Origin: Gemmata palustris
GTDB lineage: Bacteria > Planctomycetota > Planctomycetia > Gemmatales > Gemmataceae
Length of the DNA stretch: 64,000 nucleotides
Direction of reading: 5' to 3'
NCBI RefSeq assembly: GCF_017939745.1
Contig: NZ_JAGKQQ010000001.1
Coordinates: 3,906,001-3,970,000 of the forward strand
In this document: piece after piece, positions 15,012 to 25,401 of the stretch
Layout: each line of letters starts with the position of its first letter
Position numbering within the stretch: the first letter of the stretch is position 1
Translations under genes and position numbers: made by a program
The notes under the pieces: model-generated
The model's input: only the letters and a program-made list of their open reading frames with translations
Database searches by the model: none
Told to the model about the DNA's origin: nothing

Positions 15012-16070
15012 TTAGAACTGGCTCCCATCAATGACCTGGCCGTCGTCGATCACGCACACCCGCATCCAGGAGATCGGGTCGACGTTGAACCGCACGAAGC
15101 GGACCGAGCCGTCGCCCATCACCGCGTTCAGGCCACCGGTGTGGGCCGAGCCGAAGTACCGGCGCCACGTGTTCGTGCCGTCCGGGTTCAGTTTGATGTT
15201 GGTCGGGTCGGTGTCGTGCTTCGGCGGGAAATGGTAGCGGATGACGCACTCGTCCCAACCGGCGTTGTTCCAGCGCTCGTTGTCCCCGCCGTCGGCCCCC
15301 TGGCGGCTCGGGGGCAGCGCCTTCTCCGCGGCGATCAGGCTGTTCGACAGGCCGTCGGTCGCGTCGGCGATCCGGCGCTTGGCCCCCTGCCCGGACCACA
15401 CGATCATGCCCTTGCGCCCGGGGTAGTCCCCGAAGTTTTCGGGGGTGCGCTCGTTGCGCCGCGGGGTCATGCCGATCGGCGGGTCGGGGATGTCCCCCTG
15501 GTTCTCGTGCATCTCGCCCTGGTAGAACCCGGCGCTCCCGGCGTAATCGCACCGGCCCAGGAGAGCGGCCCCGTAACCGGTCGGGGCGCGGCGGGACGGG
15601 CAGTAGTAGGTCTTGATGAGCGCGCGGGCGACGTCGTCTTCGCCGTTGTAGTTCGCCGGGCGCCCGCTGTGGATCGGCGGGAGGTCGAACTTGGCGAGCT
15701 TGTACACGTTGTCCTGCTCGATGTACGGCAGGATCTTGAACCAGTGGCTCCAGCCGTCCGGGTGGGCGGCGTTGCAGCACGTGGTGCCGCTCTCGTAGGC
15801 GCCGGCCGGCTCGTTGTAGACCATGCCCGGCAACCGGGGGTCGCCGTCGTAGGGGCCTTGCGGGAAGTGGCTGTTGGCGCTCTCGAAGTTGTGGAACGCG
15901 AGCCCGATCTGCTTCATGTTGTTGGAGCACTGCATCCGGGCCGCGGCCTCGCGGACCTTTTGCACCGCGGGCAGGAGGAGCCCGATGAGGATGGCGATGA
16001 TCGCGATCACAACGAGCAGTTCGATCAATGTGAATGCCGATCGAGAACGGTTCCGGGATCTGTGATCCAT
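15012..16070 (-). CDS. DUF1559 protein with type IV pilin-like N-terminus (copy 1)
   Basis: The 352-residue protein has a prepilin peptidase site and hydrophobic helix, [18 protein letters not shown], then the family signature [20 protein letters not shown]. Further DUF1559 motifs follow: [35 protein letters not shown], and a C-terminal [15 protein letters not shown]. The protein would be processed by PilD and assembled or anchored as a pseudopilin. Planctomycetes carry dozens of these. The actual role is unknown. It heads a unit with two lipoprotein genes. Confidence 0.92.
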
Positions 16071-16256
16071 CGAGAGACTCCGAAAGCGGGCGAGGAAGAA
16101 TGAACACCGCCAACGTGGGTTAACATTGGCGATCCCCGGCGCGTTCCTCCAGTGGCGCGCCCCAATATTCGCACAACTCTCAACATCTGCTCACGGGACG
16201 CGCGCGCCGCGCTCACAATTCCCTCACAACATTTAATCGCACACACAAATGACACG

Positions 16257-16294
16257 AAAAAAACACACGGGACCGGAAGAACCGGTCCCGTGTG
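16257..16294 (-). terminator. Rho-independent terminator of the 16.3-17.8 kb unit
   Basis: The 13-bp perfect stem CACACGGGACCGG (16264-16276) / CCGGTCCCGTGTG (16282-16294) is followed on the minus strand by seven T residues (A-run 16257-16263). This ends transcription from the lipoprotein gene at 16323-16820. The 16071-16256 stretch upstream of copy 1 must hold its promoter; I see no other gene there. Confidence 0.88.
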
Positions 16295-16322
16295 CGAGTT
16301 GCATTGAAGTATCACAGGGCTA

Positions 16323-16820
16323 TCAGTTCCGCCCCGGTATCCCCTGCACCGCACCCGCCGGGCGCGTGATTTTGGGGATGTTAATGGTCGGGATTTCGTT
16401 CGCTCCCGGCTTCACGCGGACACTGACCGGCGTGTGGGCAGCGTCGTACCATCCCATGAGCCGATCCATGTCCTTCGCCTCGTCCGAAGTTTCGCCCTTG
16501 GCGGCGAGTTCGGCCGGGTCATACGGCCACGTGAGTAACACTTGGTACCCACCCTCGGCCGCACCATCGCCCTCGCTGAAGGTCGTGATGGTGAAAGTAC
16601 CGTCGTCCTTCGTGACCCCGTTCGGGTTGTGGGGGATTCTAGGGACCATCGGCGCGTCGCTCGGAAGGAGGATCACGCTCACCCCCGCGGCCGGCTTTCC
16701 GTCGTAGATCACCCGCCCCGTGACGGGATGGGCCGTCACCGGCCCGTCATTGGTGCTCTCCCCGGCGCACCCGCTCGCGAGTGCGGCCGACAGCGATACG
16801 AGGGCTACTAAACGTCGCAT
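16323..16820 (-). CDS. Carboxypeptidase-regulatory-like lipoprotein
   Basis: The 165-residue lipoprotein has lipobox ALASGC (Cys about 18). Its mature part is a single beta-sandwich like transthyretin/carboxypeptidase regulatory domains: HPVTGRVIYDGKPAAGVSVILLP, then NGVTKDDGTFTITTFSEGDGAAEGGYQVLL (ends quoted). Such proteins are the standard downstream partners of DUF1559 genes in planctomycetes. The start is 14 bases after the DUF1559 stop. No enzymatic role is suggested. Confidence 0.85.
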   Translation of the reverse strand: MRRLVALVSLSAALASGCAGESTNDGPVTAHPVTGRVIYDGKPAAGVSVILLPSDAPMVPRIPHNPNGVTKDDGTFTITTFSEGDGAAEGGYQVLLTWPYDPAELAAKGETSDEAKDMDRLMGWYDAAHTPVSVRVKPGANEIPTINIPKITRPAGAVQGIPGRN

Positions 16821-16834
16821 GTACGGCCCTCCGG

Positions 16835-17782
16835 TTAGTAGTCCGACGGGGTGATGTCGCCCGCCCGACGGGTGATGAACTTCACGAACTGGCGGATGTC
16901 CATGTTCGCGCTGATGAAGTGAACGGACCCGTCCGCGAACACGTGGTTGGCCCCGCCCATGTGGAAGCTGTACACCTCGTTGCCGTTGTTGCAATTGGTG
17001 TGGCACGGCCCCGGGGCCGTGACCCCGTCCGACGCCAGCGCCCCGTGAACGATGTACTCGTTGTCCCGGTTCGCCCACCCGCCGTCCTGCCCGCCGCCCG
17101 CGGTCACCATCTTCCCCTTGACCCACCGGTCCGGGCGCCCGGCGCACTCGGACAGCATCAGGGTGTTCGAGGTGCCGTCGACGATCTCGGGAATGGTCCA
17201 CGACCGGTTCACTTGGAGGATGCCGGTGTAGTCGGCGACCACGTCGCAGAGGCCGGCGGTGGTCGCGAGGGGCGCCGAGTACGCATTGTTCGGCGCGTAG
17301 TCGCTCGGCGGGTTGTTCACCCCGCCCCCGGTACACACGCGCGTGCCGGCGCCCGGGGTCGAGGGGCACTGGAACGCGGGGATCACGTTAGCGATCGCGG
17401 CTTGGTTCGCCGCGTTGTTCCAGTTCACCGTAAACGAGTACTGCTTGTACACGTTGTCCTGTTCGATGTACGGCAACAGGAACGGGGACCAACTGTGGAT
17501 CACGCCCGACGTGGTGACCCCGGCCCGGCGCGCGGCCGAGAGCGAAACGTTGTCGGTCGCCCCCGACAACCCGCCCGGCGCGAAGCACCCGTAGGCGGAG
17601 TGGAAGTTGTTCATCCCCAGCCCGACCTGCTTCAAGTTGTTCTGGCACTTCATGCGCGCCGCGGACTCGCGCACCTTCTGCACCGCGGGGAGCAGGAGCC
17701 CGATCAGGATCGCGATGATGGCGATGACGACCAACAATTCAATCAGCGTGAACCCGCGCCGCGGGCTCGCGTGAACGGTCAT
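16835..17782 (-). CDS. DUF1559 protein with type IV pilin-like N-terminus (copy 2)
   Basis: The 315-residue protein has [19 protein letters not shown] and [20 protein letters not shown] at the N-terminus, the [14 protein letters not shown] motif, [17 protein letters not shown], and a variant C-terminus ([15 protein letters not shown]). Compared with copies 1 and 3 the middle part differs: it lacks the KTYYCPSRR line and has [10 protein letters not shown]. It is co-transcribed with the regulatory-like lipoprotein downstream and ends at the terminator at 16257. Confidence 0.92.
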
Positions 17783-17813
17783 ATTGAACCTCGGAGGCTA
17801 TTTTTGAAACGTG

Positions 17814-17834
17814 CCGCCGGCCCAGTGCCGGCGG
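17814..17834 (-). terminator. Hairpin downstream of DUF1559 copy 3
   Basis: CCGCCGGC (17814-17821) pairs with GCCGGCGG (17827-17834). A weak T-containing stretch follows on the minus strand. It lies in the 73-base gap between copies 3 and 2, so copy 2 could have its own promoter here or be reached by readthrough. Confidence 0.4.
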
Positions 17835-17855
17835 GGGACCATTGGCGGGCGGGGG

Positions 17856-18764
17856 CTAGTAGTCGGCGGAAATCACTTCGCCGTCGCTGATGAGGCACAG
17901 GCGCATCCAGTTCGCGGCGTCGATCCCGTACCGCATGAAGCGGACCGAGCCGTCGCCCATCACCGCGTTGAAGCCGCCCGGGTGCGAGCTGCCGAACCGC
18001 ACCGACCAGAATGAGGCCGACCGCGAGTCCGGGTGGTTGGCGTCGGAGTCGGGAACGGCCTCACCGAACCGCACGTGGTCCTGGTCCCAGCCGGAGTTGT
18101 TCCACACCTCGTTGTCCCCGCCGGAACTGCCCAACACGGTGGGGTGGCACTGCTTGTCGCCGGCCAGAACGGTGTTCGAGAGGCCGTCGCTCACGTCGGT
18201 GAGGGTCCGCGTCTGCTCGATGGGGGCGTTCACGGGCTTGGCGGTAAAGGTGGGTTTGAACTTCCACTGCCGAACGAGCATCCCCTCGCGCCCCTCACCG
18301 TCCATGTCCCGCCCGCCGTTCCCGGCGTAGTCCGCCCGGGCGCCGTTCGAGTACACGGTCGGGGGGCGACGGGACGGGCAGTAGTACGTCTTGATCGCGG
18401 TCATCGCAACGACCGTGTCGGTCGGGTTGTTGTAAACGTTGTCTTGCTCGATGTACGGGGTGATGTGGTAGAGCCACGTCCACCCCGGGCGGTACGAGCC
18501 CGCGTTGCAACACGGCGCAGTGCTCGGCGCGGTTCCACCGTTCGGGCCGTCGGACCCGGCGTTCGGGAACCGGTTCTGGGCGCCGTGGTAGTTGTGGAAG
18601 GCGAGCCCGATTTGCTTCATGTTGTTGGAGCAGCTCATGCGCGCCGCGGCCTCGCGCACCTTCTGAACGGCGGGCAGCAGCAGCCCGATCAAAATGGCGA
18701 TGATGGCGATCACCACCAGCAGCTCGATCAACGTAAACCCACGTGGCGCGTTGTGTCGCGTCAT
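17856..18764 (-). CDS. DUF1559 protein with type IV pilin-like N-terminus (copy 3)
   Basis: The 302-residue protein starts [16 protein letters not shown] and has the same pseudopilin helix and [22 protein letters not shown] signature. [39 protein letters not shown] and [16 protein letters not shown] follow, with [15 protein letters not shown] at the end. It is most like copy 1. A longer in-frame start upstream gives no signal or homology and was rejected. No lipoprotein gene follows directly, unlike copies 1 and 2. Confidence 0.92.
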
Positions 18765-19068
18765 CCGATTCGGCCTCAGAAGGATAAGGGCAGGCGGGGC
18801 GAGGGGCGGGAACAGGGAGCGAAGGCGGGAAAAACGGGCACCAGGGCAATGGCACACACGATCCCAACACACCCAATCTACCCGCGCCGAAGTGAATGAG
18901 GGGGCCTTCACATACTCTTCCGTGACATTCCACAATCGGAGAAGATTGCGAAACGACAAACCCTTACCCGACAGGCAATTACGACAGCAAGTGAAGAAGA
19001 AGTGAAGAAACGTTGTGGATAACACAGGCGGTGGCTGTGCGGGTCGTCTCCGAATCAGCGCCGACTGT
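18765..19068. other. Intergenic region upstream of DUF1559 copy 3
   Basis: About 300 bases without a supportable gene. It is less GC-rich than its surroundings, with a purine-rich strip (AAGGGCAGGCGGGGCGAGG) next to the start codon that includes a possible ribosome site. It probably contains the promoter of copy 3. I see no clear -10/-35 pair. Confidence 0.5.
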
Positions 19069-19143: not shown

Positions 19144-21363
19144 TCACTTCTCGGCCTTCACCTGCACGAAGAGCTGGTCACCGGGCTTGAGCTGATAGTT
19201 GGTGTACGTCACGCCGTTTTTGATCGCGGGGAGTTCGACGGGCATGACCTCCTTGCCGCGGACCAGCCACACGTTCACGGTGCCCGTCATGATCGGGATG
19301 TCGTCGATCGCGTGGAGCAACCCGTCGAGGACGCATTCGTTGCCGGTCGCCTTCACCTTGATGACCTTCTCCGACGCGGTGAGCGTGCGGATGTGGACCG
19401 TGAACACCGCGCCGGTCGGCTCGGCCCCGCCCGGGGCGCCGACGGGCGCCTTCGTGCCCTTCGCCGCCCGTGCCTTCGCGTCCTCGTACTCGCGGACGGC
19501 CAGTTGCCACCGCTGGTTCGCCCCGGCCCACCGCGCTTCGGCGAGTTCGGCGGCCTTTTTCGTGATCTGGAGCTGCGCGGTCGCCTCCGCGAGTTCGAGC
19601 TTGGCGTGTTGCGAATCGAGTTGAGCGTTCTCGACAAGCGCGAAGAGCTGCGCGAGCGCGAGGTCGCTCACCCGCTCGTCGCCCGTTTTCTTCGCCAGTG
19701 CGTCCAGTTGTGCCCGGAGTTCGCGCGTCCGCTCGTCGTCGGCCGCCGTGGGCTTCGGGCCGGCGCGAACCATCTCGAACACGATCACCCCTTCGCCACC
19801 GAACTTCGTGGGGCGCTTGCCTTCGACCGTGAGCGCCAGTCGCAAACCGGCCGCGTGCATCACGGTCTTGTTCTTGAGTGCCGGTTCGCACACCCCGTTC
19901 TCGTTCGGGAACCGCCCGGTGACCAGGGTGCGCAAGTTGTTGTTCGTCTTGTGGCACTGCATGCAGGCGTTCAGCGGCGCGGTGACCTCGTAGATCCCGC
20001 GGCCCGTCGGTTCGTGCGGGGTGATCAGATCGATGGTGTTGCGGTGCGCGACGGCGTCGGGCTTCTGACGGGCGAACTCGACCGAGATCCCGTACCGGCG
20101 CTGCTTCCACGCCCCGGTCGCATCCCGGTACGGCATCTTCATCGTGCTCCCGCTGATCTCGATCACCCACGGGTCGCCCGGCTCGATATTCAATTTCTTG
20201 TTCCCGTCCGTCACGCTCGTGACGCGCCACGATCCCTGGAGCGGGTCGAGGTCGGCCCCGGGCTTCGCGGGCGGGTCCGCGGGCGCCGGCGCCTCGCCCG
20301 GGTCGAGTAGCCGACCGACCTCTTTGATCCGCGCCTGCAACCGGGCCAGTACGTCGGGGTCCACGTTCCGCTTGCCGGCCGCGGCCTTCAGTTCCTCGGC
20401 CAGAACCCGCAGTTCTTCTTGCGCGAGGCTCAACCGCGGGCCGCGTTGACCGGCTCCCGTCGCGGGCGGCTCGCCCGCCACCCCGCTTACGGTGGTCGCC
20501 GGAGCGCCCGGTTTCTGGCCCGGTTGCGTGCCGGCACCGTCGCCGCTGCCCGAACCGGAGGCCGCGAACGCGCCAAAACCGAGCGCGCAGGCCGCGAACA
20601 CGACCGCCGTCATCGCCTTGAGCTTGAAGAGCGCCATACTGGACACCACCCCTTCGGTTAGAGCCGCCACGGGAGCCGAAACGCCCGCGCCGGTTCCGAT
20701 CGCGAGATCGATTGTTGATTGAATCGCCGCGGCCGAGGCCCCCTCGGTGGCCGCACACGCCGCGACCAGCCCGCCCGCCGGGAGCGCGAGCCCGACGCGC
20801 CGGAGCCGCGTCGCGAGGAGTTCGCGTGCCCGGGCGAGCCGGCCGGAGAGCGTGCCCTCGCTCCACCCCAGGCGCTCGGCCGCTTCTTTCCGGCTCAGGC
20901 CCTGGAGGTCGCACGCCACGACCGCCGAACGATAGATTTCGGGCAACCGGCACACGACGCGGTGAACCACGTCCGCGAGGTCGGCGTCGGGCCGCGCCGG
21001 TTCGGGGGCCGCGACGTCTTCGAGCGCGTGCTCGCGCGCGGCCCGCCGGCCCCGCACCGCCCGCGCTTTGAGCGAAACCCGGTGCGCCACCCCGAACAAC
21101 CACGCCGCGACCGCCTCGCGCGGCCACACGTCCCCCGCCCGGCGCGCGAGCACGATGAACGTCGCCTGGAGCGCGTCCTCCGCGTCCTGCCGGTGGCGCA
21201 GGACGCGCCGGCACGTGGAGAAGACGAGCCCCGCGTGCCGGTGAACGAGCGCGGCGAACGCGCCCTGGTCGCCGGCGAGGAACGCCGTGAGCAGCGCGCC
21301 ATCCGAAGACGCGCCGGGGGTACTCGTCAGCCGGTTCAGCTTGGCCAGGGTCGCGTTCACCAT
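19144..21363 (-). CDS. ECF sigma factor fused to a membrane-spanning extracytoplasmic sensor-like region
   Basis: The first 190 residues of this 739-residue protein are an ECF sigma factor: region 2 DGALLTAFLAGDQGAFAALV...DAEDALQATFIVLAR and region 4 LPEIYRSAVVACDLQGLSRKEAAERLGWSEGT (ends quoted). A hydrophobic segment at about 250-270 (MTAVVFAACALGFGAFAA) would cross the membrane. Beyond it lie a Pro-rich linker, a TIGR03067-like domain (LQGSWRVTSVTDGNKK, about 375-535) containing one CMQCH motif (467-471), a coiled coil (about 544-635) and a C-terminal beta domain ending YQLKPGDQLFVQVKAEK that recalls SLBB/polysaccharide-export repeats. No separate anti-sigma gene adjoins it. A membrane-held sigma factor with a built-in sensor is inferred. 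The ATG at 21363 is preceded by a GAGG site. Confidence 0.85.
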   Translation of the reverse strand: MVNATLAKLNRLTSTPGASSDGALLTAFLAGDQGAFAALVHRHAGLVFSTCRRVLRHRQDAEDALQATFIVLARRAGDVWPREAVAAWLFGVAHRVSLKARAVRGRRAAREHALEDVAAPEPARPDADLADVVHRVVCRLPEIYRSAVVACDLQGLSRKEAAERLGWSEGTLSGRLARARELLATRLRRVGLALPAGGLVAACAATEGASAAAIQSTIDLAIGTGAGVSAPVAALTEGVVSSMALFKLKAMTAVVFAACALGFGAFAASGSGSGDGAGTQPGQKPGAPATTVSGVAGEPPATGAGQRGPRLSLAQEELRVLAEELKAAAGKRNVDPDVLARLQARIKEVGRLLDPGEAPAPADPPAKPGADLDPLQGSWRVTSVTDGNKKLNIEPGDPWVIEISGSTMKMPYRDATGAWKQRRYGISVEFARQKPDAVAHRNTIDLITPHEPTGRGIYEVTAPLNACMQCHKTNNNLRTLVTGRFPNENGVCEPALKNKTVMHAAGLRLALTVEGKRPTKFGGEGVIVFEMVRAGPKPTAADDERTRELRAQLDALAKKTGDERVSDLALAQLFALVENAQLDSQHAKLELAEATAQLQITKKAAELAEARWAGANQRWQLAVREYEDAKARAAKGTKAPVGAPGGAEPTGAVFTVHIRTLTASEKVIKVKATGNECVLDGLLHAIDDIPIMTGTVNVWLVRGKEVMPVELPAIKNGVTYTNYQLKPGDQLFVQVKAEK

Positions 21364-21617
21364 CGCTCCTCGGGTTCGCGTCTCTACCAGTGATTGCCCG
21401 TAACCCCGCGGGCGCGTACAGAAGAATCGCGCCGGACTCCTACCGCGTGCGAAAAAGCGCCCGGCGCGTCCTTTCGCCCCGTGCCACGTCCGCCGGCCGC
21501 CGCCGTTCCCCCGTCGGTTCCGATGCTTCACTCGGTGACCACCGGAGAAGTGGCGCGGGCCGCCAATGTAACATTTTCTTTGGACAAGTGGCCGGCTCGA
21601 CGCACTGGTGAGGTGAG

Positions 21618-22169
21618 ATGAGCGAGCCCGTACCGACCGATGCCGAGCTGGTTCGCCGGACCGTGGCGGGTGACCGCGACGCATTCGCCCGGCTGTACGA
21701 CCGGTACGCCCGGTTGGTCCGCGCGATCGCGGGCGACGCCGGGCCGGACCGCGCCGAGGACGTCACCCACGACGTGTTCCTGCGGGCGTACCGGTCCATC
21801 ACCGCACTACGGGACGCCGACCGGTTCGCCCCCTGGCTGGTCGGCATTGCCCGGCGCGTGGTCCAGGAAACCCGCCGGCGCCCCGTTCGAGAGCCCCTCT
21901 CGAGCGACGTCGCCGACGGGCGCCCGCCCGCGGAACACAGTATCGACGACGCGGACGAGCGCGCCCACGTGCTCGCGCTGGTGAGCCGGCTGCCCGAGGA
22001 AGAACGGCGGGCCGTCCAGTTCTTCTTCCTGAGCGGCCGGGACGGGACCGAAACGGCCCGGCTACTCGGCCGGTCCCGGTCGGGTACCTACGCGCTCATC
22101 AATCGTGCGGTCGGTATTCTCGCCCGGTGGATGGGGGCCGATCACACGGCCGGGGAGGTTCCGCGATGA
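21618..22169 (+). CDS. ECF RNA polymerase sigma factor
   Basis: The 183-residue protein has region 2 (DAELVRRTVAGDRDAFARLYDRYARLVRAIA...AEDVTHDVFLRAYRS) and region 4 (LPEEERRAVQFFFLSGRDGTETARLLGRSRSGTYALINRA), both quoted in part. It directs RNA polymerase to stress or envelope promoters. Its stop overlaps the start of the next gene (ATGA), the classic coupling to an anti-sigma factor. It diverges from the fusion sigma gene; the 254-base gap between them holds both promoters and may be autoregulated. Confidence 0.9.
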   Translation: MSEPVPTDAELVRRTVAGDRDAFARLYDRYARLVRAIAGDAGPDRAEDVTHDVFLRAYRSITALRDADRFAPWLVGIARRVVQETRRRPVREPLSSDVADGRPPAEHSIDDADERAHVLALVSRLPEEERRAVQFFFLSGRDGTETARLLGRSRSGTYALINRAVGILARWMGADHTAGEVPR

Positions 22170-23113
22170 GGTGCCCGACCGATGCCGAACTCGCGGCCCT
22201 CGCCGTTGGCGGGGCGCCCGCCACCGACCGAGAGCACGTCGCCGGGTGCCCCTCGTGCGCGGCCCGGCTCGCCGAGATCCGGTCCACCGTGGACCGGCTA
22301 GAAGCGGCCCACACCGTGCCCGAGCGCGGCCACGCGACCGGGCGGGCACGATTACTGGAGGCACTGGCCGCAGAGCCGGTGCCGGTTCACCCCACTTTTC
22401 TTTGGAGGGTTCTCATGGATCGGCGTACCTGGATTACGTCCGGAGCGCTTTCGGCCGCAGTGGTCGTCGCCGTGGTCCTCGGCTGGGGAGGGGCGCCATC
22501 CGTCGCCCTGGCCGACGGCCTCAAGCCGTTCAAGGAGGCAAAGGCGTTCTCGTGCGAGTACATTCCGCTCCACGGCGGGAAGCCGGACGCGGTCGCGAAG
22601 AACGTAACCATAAAGCTGACCTGGGCCGCCCCCGGATCTCTGCGGAACGAAGTATCCGCCGGCGGTAAATCGCAGGCCGCGGCCATCCTCCCGCACGGGA
22701 AAGCGGGGGTCGCCATCGACCACCGCGACAAGACGTTCCTCCCGATGGACGAAAAGCCCGGTCCGCAGGAGGCCGCCCTACTCAAACTCGTCCACGGACT
22801 GGCGGCGTACTCGGGCGGGGACCAGAAGCCGGCCGGGACCGACGAAATCAACGGAGTGAAGGCCCCGCGGTTCGATCTGGAAATCAAGGACGCGGAAGCG
22901 AAGGACGCGACCTGGCAGTACCGGGTCTGGGTCCACCCGGAGACGAAACGGCCCGTGCGGGTCGAATTCGCACTCCAGGCCGGGCAGGACCCGACGGCCA
23001 AGGACGTCGCCGGTGTTCGGCTCGAGAAGTTCGAGTGGGATGTGAAGACGGAAGGGCTCTTCGATACGAAACCGCCGGCCGGGTACAAATCCGCCATAGT
23101 GGAGAAGAAGTAG
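22166..23113 (+). CDS. Anti-sigma-like membrane protein with zinc finger and LolA/RseB-like domain
   Basis: The 315-residue protein starts at the ATG that overlaps the sigma stop. Residues 24-31 (HVAGCPSC) form the HxxxCxxC motif of zinc-binding anti-sigma domains. A membrane segment (WITSGALSAAVVVAVVLGW) is near residues 90-108. The periplasmic part, with ADGLKPFKEAKAFSCEY, PGSLRNEVSAGGKSQ and INGVKAPRFDLEI, resembles LolA/RseB-type lipoprotein-binding folds, as in planctomycete sigma-E regulators. It would hold the sigma factor at the membrane until the outer domain senses stress. A terminator follows at 23345. Confidence 0.85.
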   Translation: MRCPTDAELAALAVGGAPATDREHVAGCPSCAARLAEIRSTVDRLEAAHTVPERGHATGRARLLEALAAEPVPVHPTFLWRVLMDRRTWITSGALSAAVVVAVVLGWGGAPSVALADGLKPFKEAKAFSCEYIPLHGGKPDAVAKNVTIKLTWAAPGSLRNEVSAGGKSQAAAILPHGKAGVAIDHRDKTFLPMDEKPGPQEAALLKLVHGLAAYSGGDQKPAGTDEINGVKAPRFDLEIKDAEAKDATWQYRVWVHPETKRPVRVEFALQAGQDPTAKDVAGVRLEKFEWDVKTEGLFDTKPPAGYKSAIVEKK

Positions 23114-23382: not shown

Positions 23383-23799
23383 ACCGGCGCAGACCGAACA
23401 CGAAAAACGGAACATCGGACACGAACGGCACGTTTCCGTTGCAGACCAACTTTGCTCTCGCCATAATACCGTCAAGCCTCGCGCGGTCACGGTCGATCGC
23501 GCGGGATTATCCCGGTCGCGGATGTACCGCCGCCGGTCTACCACGGACGGCTCGCGCTCCGTTTTACCTAAATAAAGACCCCGGTTCGCCCGTCGCACCT
23601 CGGACCCGCGCTAGAGGCGGGGCTTGACACCGACGAACGCGGCCGCGAGTGCTCGCGCCGCGACTGTCCGATCACGTGGGGTTCGGGACTCGATTCGTGA
23701 CTCGTGACGCCCGACCGCCCGGTCGGGCGCCGCGTGTGCCATTTGTCCCGGCCCCGCTGCCGAGCTTCGACGGGCCACCGGTTTGGAGTGGCCCTCATC

Positions 23800-25401
23800 A
23801 TGGAACCGCTGTTGGTCGGCGGGCTCGTCGTCGTCGCTGTCCTCACGGGCATCGGCGGCACGTACCTCGTCGTGCGCCGGTCGCCCCCGCCCGTCGTCCC
23901 CCGCGAGCCCGCGCCCCCCGACCCCGAAGTGATGCGCCGCGCCGAGGCGCGCGGCGACGAACTCGTCGAACAGTCCCGGCGCGACGCCGAGCGCATCGTC
24001 CGCGACGCCGAACTGAAGGCCCGCGACGAGGCCGTCCGGCGCCGCGAGGAGCTGAGCCGCGAACTCGACGTCGCCCGGACCGAGGTGCGCGACCTGGAGC
24101 GCCGGGTCGAGAAGCGCGAGGACGCCGTCGAGCAGCACCAGCGCGAGCTCGCCCGCAAGGAGAAGCACCTCGACGGACAGAAAGAGAAGTTCGCCGAGCG
24201 CGAGGAGGCGCTCGGTACGAAGGCCCGGCACCTCGACGAACTCATCGACAAGCAGACCCAACAGCTCCACGAACTCAGCGGGCTGTCGCGCGAGGCCGCA
24301 CAGAAGATGATCCTCGAGCGCCTGGAGCGCGAACTGTCCGACGAGATCGCGAAGAAGATCCGCCAGCACGACGAGCGCATGAAGCAGCAGGCCGAGGCCG
24401 CGGCGCGCGAGATCGTCACCATCGCCATTCAGCGCTACGCCGCGCACCAGACCGCCGGCACGACCGTGAGCACGGTGGACATCCCGTCGGACGACATGAA
24501 GGGGCGCATCATCGGGCGCGAGGGGCGGAACATCCGCACGTTCGAGAAGCTGACCGGCGTGGACGTGATCGTGGACGACACGCCCGGCGTGGTGATCGTG
24601 TCCGCGTTCGATAACGTGCGCCGGGAAACGGCCCGGCTCGCGCTCACGAAGCTCATCCAGGACGGGCGCATCCACCCGACGCGGATCGAGGAGGTCGTCG
24701 CCGAAACGCAGGCCGAGATGGAAAAACACATCCAGGAACTCGGCACAAAGGCGGTGCTGGACGCGGACGTGCAGATGCCGCACGAGAAGCTGGTGTACCT
24801 CCTGGGGCGGCTCCGGTTCCGCACGAGTTACAGCCAGAACGTGTTGGCCCACTCGGTCGAGGTCGCGCACCTGTGCGGGATCATGGCGTCCGAACTCGGG
24901 CTGAACGCGCAACTCGCGCGCCGGTGCGGGCTGCTCCACGACGTGGGCAAGGCCGCGGACCACGAGATGGAGGGCGGGCACCCGAAGGTGGGGGCGGAAC
25001 TCGCGAAGCGGTACGGCGAGACGAGCAAAGAAGTGCTGCACGCGATCGCCGGGCACCACGACGACATCACGATCGACAACATCTACACGGTGCTGGTGGC
25101 GTCGGCCGACGCGATCAGCGCGAGCCGCCCCGGGGCGCGGCGCGAGACCCTGGAAAAGTACGTGAAGCGCCTCGCGGACCTGGAAGCGGTCGCGTGCGGG
25201 TTCCCGGAAGTGGACCAAGCGTTCGCGATCCAGGCCGGGCGCGAGCTGCGCGTGATCGCGAACGCGCACCGCACCACCGACGCGGACGCGGTGCGCATCT
25301 GCCGCGACATCGCCCGCTCCATCGAGCAGCAGCTCGACTACCCCGGGGAGATCAAGGTCACGGTGATCCGCGAGAGCCGCGCGGTCGACACCGCGAAGTG
25401 A
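23800..25401 (+). CDS. rny: Ribonuclease Y
   Basis: The 533-residue protein has an N-terminal membrane anchor ([18 protein letters not shown]) and a long charged coiled coil (about 45-220). A KH domain follows with [20 protein letters not shown], and an HD domain has HSVEVAHL and [12 protein letters not shown] supplying the metal-binding histidines and aspartate. RNase Y starts bulk mRNA decay at the membrane. The ATG at 23800 has TTGGAGTGG before it and places the anchor first; a longer frame upstream was rejected. Confidence 0.95.

Follow-up and report, generated by a model that had tools for sequence, protein, structure and literature searches.

ECF sigma factors bearing a C-terminal, membrane-crossing fusion have been described in several bacteria. 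According to the account in PMC8999054, IutY (ECF243) of Pseudomonas putida combines an ECF with an anti-sigma part bound to the membrane, from which Prc and RseP free it, and activation by proteolysis is expected for the actinobacterial groups ECF48, ECF52 and ECF53, whose anti-sigma part is of the zinc-finger type. The protein considered here, from Gemmata palustris, is likewise an ECF sigma factor with such a fusion, but it lacks the HxxxCxxC motif in its linker and carries an outer module with a CxxCH motif. In the same bacterial family, Gemmataceae, ECFs with a long extra part have been described (PMC8567305, PMC11032199), in which a WD40 propeller occupies the place taken here by a TIGR03067-like domain, a coil and an SLBB-like end; in Tuwongella, some ECFs are reported in Triton or SDS fractions (PMC8567305). 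OrbS, by its description in PMC9023288, also unites a sigma factor and a sensor, an on-board iron sensor, in one protein. With regard to sensor domains, a 2026 preprint (PMC12889525) describes Cache domains that acquired a CXXCH-bearing insertion and hold a c-type haem; according to it, fused forms show properties of NO sensors, and the haem of Tll0287 is ligated by Cys and His. These sCache_heme/DUF3365-Tll0287 domains resemble the present one as extracytoplasmic sensor domains with a CXXCH insert, but their outputs are kinase, MCP and GGDEF/EAL domains, whereas here the output is a sigma factor and the haem is predicted.

The gene lies on the minus strand of the window, the whole 64,000-nucleotide stretch of DNA analysed, and runs from an ATG at 21363 to a stop at 19144 (19144–21363, stop included; 739 aa). 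The open frame extends upstream of this ATG; its relatives can be aligned from the next codon on, a GTG in six of them, and a GGAG-like site precedes this start region. As the preliminary description had proposed, a single frame encodes regions 2 and 4 of an ECF sigma factor, a predicted transmembrane helix, a TIGR03067-like domain with a single CMQCH, a coil-like stretch and, last, a part resembling SLBB; to these can be added a linker before the helix and a Pro/Gly-rich stalk behind it. Pfam places region 2, which includes QDAED, at residues 39–105 (21049–21249) and region 4 at residues 133–183 (20815–20967). Both exceed their cut-offs (Sigma70_r2, 34.4 bits against 24; Sigma70 r4_2, 46.7 bits against 25.7) and region 3 is not among the Pfam matches of the protein, a combination that defines ECF sigma factors; the best 25 of the 70 NCBIfam families listed for the full protein are all sigma families. 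The DAED stretch of region 2, to which PMC8103513 ascribes a functional role, is intact. The cytoplasmic linker, whose boundaries are our own (residues 193–249; 20617–20787), includes the juxtamembrane stretch APVAALTEGVVSSMALFKLK and leads into the single hydrophobic segment behind region 4, predicted from hydropathy to be a membrane helix (residues 250–270; 20554–20616). Next comes the stalk (residues 271–368; 20260–20553), delimited by alignment, with a helix-like stretch that is absent from three relatives (L085–L087).

Beyond the stalk, the outer domain (residues 369–534; 19762–20259) matches TIGR03067 with 22 bits (E 1.3e-4). This score is under the curated cut-off of 40.15, but every one of the seven full-length proteins of this type matches within an E of 1, the best reaching 6e-11, so that the term TIGR03067-like is apt without full membership. 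The domain contains Met410 (20134–20136), the CMQCH motif (residues 467–471; 19951–19965), which a by-eye alignment shows as an insert relative to ordinary TIGR03067 domains, and Cys492 (19888–19890). It is followed by a coil-like helical stretch (residues 546–645; 19429–19728), read from the sequence and from weak matches to coil-type families, and by the SLBB-like end (residues 652–739; 19147–19410). The latter designation was also borne out: although Pfam SLBB_2 matches only two of the seven proteins weakly, below the SLBB cut-off (best E 0.0071), about 70–85 of the last 88 residues are homologous to the part that follows the Poly_export domain in polysaccharide-export proteins. The best single-sequence match has an E of 1.4e-7, and a profile of the SLBB-like end matches the five such proteins scanned at E 5e-10 to 1e-13. 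All five contain the Poly_export domain, which is not in the window protein. The same profile gave no match among solved structures.

A model of residues 15–285, built from 20 sequences (mean pLDDT 82, pTM 0.58), shows the helices of both sigma regions, a short helix in the linker, and a long one running from the juxtamembrane stretch through the membrane segment. By their titles, all 21 structures that it matches in the PDB at E up to 0.001 are sigma-factor or transcription-complex entries (best 9m9e_F, E 6.3e-6). Among these, anti-sigma-bound sigma chains superpose with an rmsd of 7.6–13.8 and polymerase-complex chains with 16.7–23.1; at a pTM of 0.58, the lower values are a hint from the model and no evidence for self-inhibition. 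The model of the outer domain, made from two input sequences, has a mean pLDDT of 32.

That the outer module lies outside the membrane, as the preliminary description assumed, is probable. In the organism's own genome, 9 of the 38 TIGR03067 matches are inside sigma frames and 29 are outside them; in a check of 20 of these 29, every one had an N-terminal stretch resembling a signal peptide (mean hydropathy over 12 residues at or above 2, judged by eye). Together with a paralogue of the outer module in a related genome (G019) that stands alone and begins with a similar stretch, these exported matches point to an outside location. The SLBB-like end, being common to polysaccharide-export proteins, and the envelope proteins in which the other members of this sigma family end, argue indirectly for the same side. 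The positive-inside bias is weak: among 74 sigma frames with a hydrophobic segment, K+R residues before the helix are more numerous in 43, equal in 18 and fewer in 13. The conserved CxxCH would then stand on the outer face, as in a c-type haem protein.

The plan of a sigma factor followed by one membrane segment is shared by many proteins of this genome. In its 9.23 Mb, 150 of 192 candidates were scored, giving at least 135 Pfam Sigma70_r2 matches, and the 94 of these 135 with an open frame of 300 aa or more were analysed. Behind region 4, 74 of the 94 have a hydrophobic segment (mean hydropathy over 19 residues of 1.6 or more), always 190–240 aa after the start of region 2, which amounts to 74 of the 79 frames reaching that far; no second segment beyond 260 aa was found in these 79 frames (603 bins). 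A chance origin of the segment, considered as an alternative, is ruled out by its occurrence once per protein at one place. One protein (L188) was dropped since its stretch looks like part of a soluble helical domain, and another frame (L151), with a visible segment slightly under the threshold, was not counted. There remain 73 proteins (loci within L114–L193) built of sigma regions 2 and 4, a linker, one hydrophobic segment and a large C-terminal part. Behind the helix, the best 25 of 114 Pfam families include PD40 (18 of 73) and WD40 (14 of 73), and the best 25 of 74 NCBIfam families include TolB-type propellers (13), TIGR03067 (6), GspD (5), PilQ (3), RND adaptors (2; best E 2.4e-60), TlpA (2) and ResA (2). 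The RND-adaptor matches exceed their cut-off within two sigma frames (C1:5182723, full length, and C1:294571-295698), and partial GspD matches, below the cut-off, lie within five. The adaptors belong to L193 and L162, and the secretin pieces to L114, L117, L147, L190 and L191. None of the 73 linkers, that of the window protein included, contains the HxxxCxxC anti-sigma motif, and the zinc-finger-type anti-sigma domain that marks ECF48/52/53 was not found before the helix. By prediction, the tethered plan is common in this genome, and the window protein is its CxxCH variant. The design proposed in the preliminary description, a sigma factor and a sensor in one protein, stands, with a membrane helix behind region 4 in the same chain read from hydropathy alone; its apparent singularity does not, as 73 proteins share the plan and fused, proteolysis-activated ECFs are already described in PMC8999054.

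Using the outer 377 residues as a query against 95 genomes of the family, 19 of them in one genus, seven full-length genes were found, that of the window included, all within this genus. The identities in the search were 79% (G009), 76% (G010), 50% (G017), 44% (G026), 43% (G019) and 40% (G016); the G009 protein (L001) is the same as that of Gemmata sp. IIL30 (HG799464.1) and was counted once. Relative to the window protein, the six relatives are 59–100% identical in the helix, 69–85% in the sigma part and 40–78% in the outer domain. A lack of conservation of CxxCH among homologues, which would have spoken against the preliminary description, is not what is seen: the motif is present in all seven distinct proteins (CMQCH in three, and CQSCH, CISCH, CLQCH and CLKCH), four of whose outer domains are just 40–51% identical to that of the window protein. 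Such conservation rules out its occurrence by chance. Behind the helix, the only Cys, His or Met residues invariant in the seven-protein alignment are Met410, Cys467, Cys470, His471 and Cys492. Each outer domain has exactly three Cys, two proteins having one extra Cys in the SLBB-like end.

A profile of the outer domain matched 16 of the 95 genomes at E up to 1e-4, and among these matches the full Met/Cys/Cys/His/Cys set is confined to the seven full-length proteins. Partial motifs were noticed in some others, namely the last Cys-His in L222, the first Cys and the His in L226 and L227, and the first Cys only in L219 and one L220 protein. A Met in the Met410 column without CxxCH occurs in 1 of the 13 other distinct outer-domain matches, and two relatives with the whole outer module but without the insert have Leu or Ala there, so that the association of Met410 with CxxCH appears strong, albeit imperfect. 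In a weak phylum-wide profile search, with about nine candidates scored per genome, 1 of 392 sampled genomes matched, namely the organism's own. Among solved structures, the outer-domain profile matched three at E up to 10, none better than E 0.18; cytochrome families matched the outer domain at chance level (NapB, E 0.18 and 0.11; cytochrome c3, E 4), and sCache_heme (DUF3365) gave no Pfam match at E up to 1 among the matches listed.

The motif is not a trait of the TIGR03067 family. Within the own genome, CxxCH is found in 1 of the 38 TIGR03067 matches, each taken with up to 30 residues behind it, and in 1 of the 94 long sigma frames, in both cases the window protein, to which the insert is hence specific. 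By-eye alignment places the CxxCH...C segment where ordinary domains have a short turn after 'GIYE' and before a stretch ending in 'RPT.F'. The two relatives that have the whole outer module (TIGR03067-like, coil and SLBB-like parts) but no CxxCH insert, with Leu or Ala in place of Met410, are stand-alone paralogues whose N-terminus resembles a signal peptide. One is in G019 (L210, 6081–7370), where its gene adjoins the sigma gene, and the other in G014 (L088, 1492–2760), behind a relic of the sigma gene. In G090, a single frame (L089, 604–2775) combines an ECF sigma factor, an SLBB-like part and a weak match to a PPIC-type prolyl isomerase (E 3.8e-5).

Upstream of the gene, a promoter-like bipartite motif, GTACGCGCC-N12-GGCAAT, lies 29 nt before the ATG (21393–21419, minus strand). 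In six of the seven genomes with the full gene, it stands 29–34 nt before the start codon, exact at all 15 fixed positions and flanked by poorly aligned sequence; it is absent from G016. It also precedes the G014 relic, where it is found directly before the last SLBB-like codons, so that the sigma gene looks like a remnant of a deletion; in this assembly of about 230 contigs, an error is a possible cause. A hairpin was rejected by eye, as the 12 intervening bases are not complementary in every genome; a constant distance between the halves, with no complementarity preserved, is more in keeping with a promoter. The motif is a candidate for the sigma gene's own promoter. The own genome contains one exact copy, as expected for a private promoter. 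With up to two mismatches, 51 sites were found in this genome against 19 for the reversed control, and no regulon was called; the single one-mismatch site falls inside open frames on both strands. In the window, six sites with up to three mismatches compare with 3.7 expected.

Taken together, we tentatively propose, at somewhat short of an even chance, a one-chain sigma/sensor whose CxxCH carries covalent haem and whose sigma part is freed by site-2 proteolysis. The helix would hold the ECF sigma part at the inner face of the membrane, while the CxxCH insert of the TIGR03067-like beta domain would most likely bind a c-type haem outside, His471 being one ligand and either Met410 or Cys492 a candidate for the second. 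The coil and the SLBB-like domain probably serve to anchor the protein in the envelope, either close to the exopolysaccharide-export machinery or in its manner. A change at the haem, in redox state or through a gas such as NO, could open the outer part to a first protease, whereupon cleavage of the helix by a site-2 M50 protease would release the sigma factor. The latter may then transcribe its own gene from the putative promoter, along with further genes. Six M50 matches are present in five open frames of the genome, including an 820-aa frame with a split, RseP-like match.

Several points of this proposal can be read otherwise. In the same tethered protein, CxxCH and Cys492 could form a zinc or copper site, or a thiol/disulfide switch, with no haem involved. 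Three Cys invariant in all seven outer domains and His471 are enough for a Cys3His site, and CorE, as described in PMC8999054, provides an example of a metal-sensing, Cys-rich ECF extension. On the other hand, a His immediately behind the second Cys is the signature of haem c, Met410 does not vary either, and the genome encodes cytochrome-c-assembly matches, Cytochrom_C_asm being matched in two frames, one of 1267 and one of 365 aa. Since three Cys and one His would suit zinc equally well, we give the haem an even chance or slightly better, and regard the metal or thiol site as a real possibility, if not a probable one.

Tethering implies that the sigma part is either freed or active at the membrane. 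CadC and ToxR act while membrane-bound, and the window protein could do so uncleaved, the helix relaying a shape change to the linker helices. The near-fixed linker length before the helix across the sigma family, the strong conservation of the helix, and the linker helix and second, membrane-continuous helix of the model would agree with such a relay, but a sigma factor normally must join and leave RNA polymerase, and IutY, the studied fused case, is cleaved (PMC8999054); we consider action without cleavage unlikely. Cleavage could also be of another kind. An A-x-A or V-x-A at the end of the helix in all seven proteins, and the RND adaptors or secretin pieces behind the sigma part of other family members, would be in keeping with a mainly envelope protein cut there by signal peptidase into separately working parts. 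We deem this very improbable, given that the sigma part and the helix are the best-conserved regions and that such short motifs are probably common in alanine-rich helices.

Returning to the proposed haem-bearing, proteolytically released sigma factor, the sigma–helix–outside design is known, and it is the outer module that is unusual. No paper on a sigma factor with a covalent-haem-type domain was among the matches listed by a literature search, outside which lay the main ECF classification and planctomycete papers, so that no novelty is claimed at the level of an ECF group. It is rather doubtful, though conceivable, that this is the first sigma factor to carry a covalent haem sensor within its own chain, and that it belongs to a set of about 73 sigma-headed envelope proteins of this genome, reporting redox state or a gas through a self-promoting tethered sigma part, its TIGR03067-type domain having independently gained CxxCH and Met/Cys ligands. 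If so, detection, membrane crossing and promoter choice would reside in a single polypeptide whose cofactor is coloured and easy to assay, offering a direct way to test the switching of the many sigma factors of this genome, most of the long ones being membrane-tethered by prediction. The acquisition of haem by a sensor domain through a short CxxCH insert would then have a second, independent example, and envelope machines (RND adaptors, secretins, thioredoxin-like proteins) would report directly to transcription.

With regard to the neighbourhood, rny (RNase Y, 642 bits; 23704–25401) is divergent from the sigma/sensor gene, as in all five other genomes with enough flank, the stand-alone paralogue lying in between in G019. 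In the window, the space between the two genes is occupied by a separate pair (21618–23113) coding for an ECF and a membrane anti-sigma factor with an HVAGCPSC sequence (HxxxCxxC), overlapping at ATGA; in a search of seven neighbour loci from six genomes, this anti-sigma gene had no match at E up to 1e-8. Downstream, three pseudopilin-like genes are present (15012–19025), one recognised by scan (N_methyl and DUF1559) and the others by similarity. Pseudopilin-like genes also adjoin the sigma/sensor gene in G009/IIL30 and, in part, in G010 and G019.
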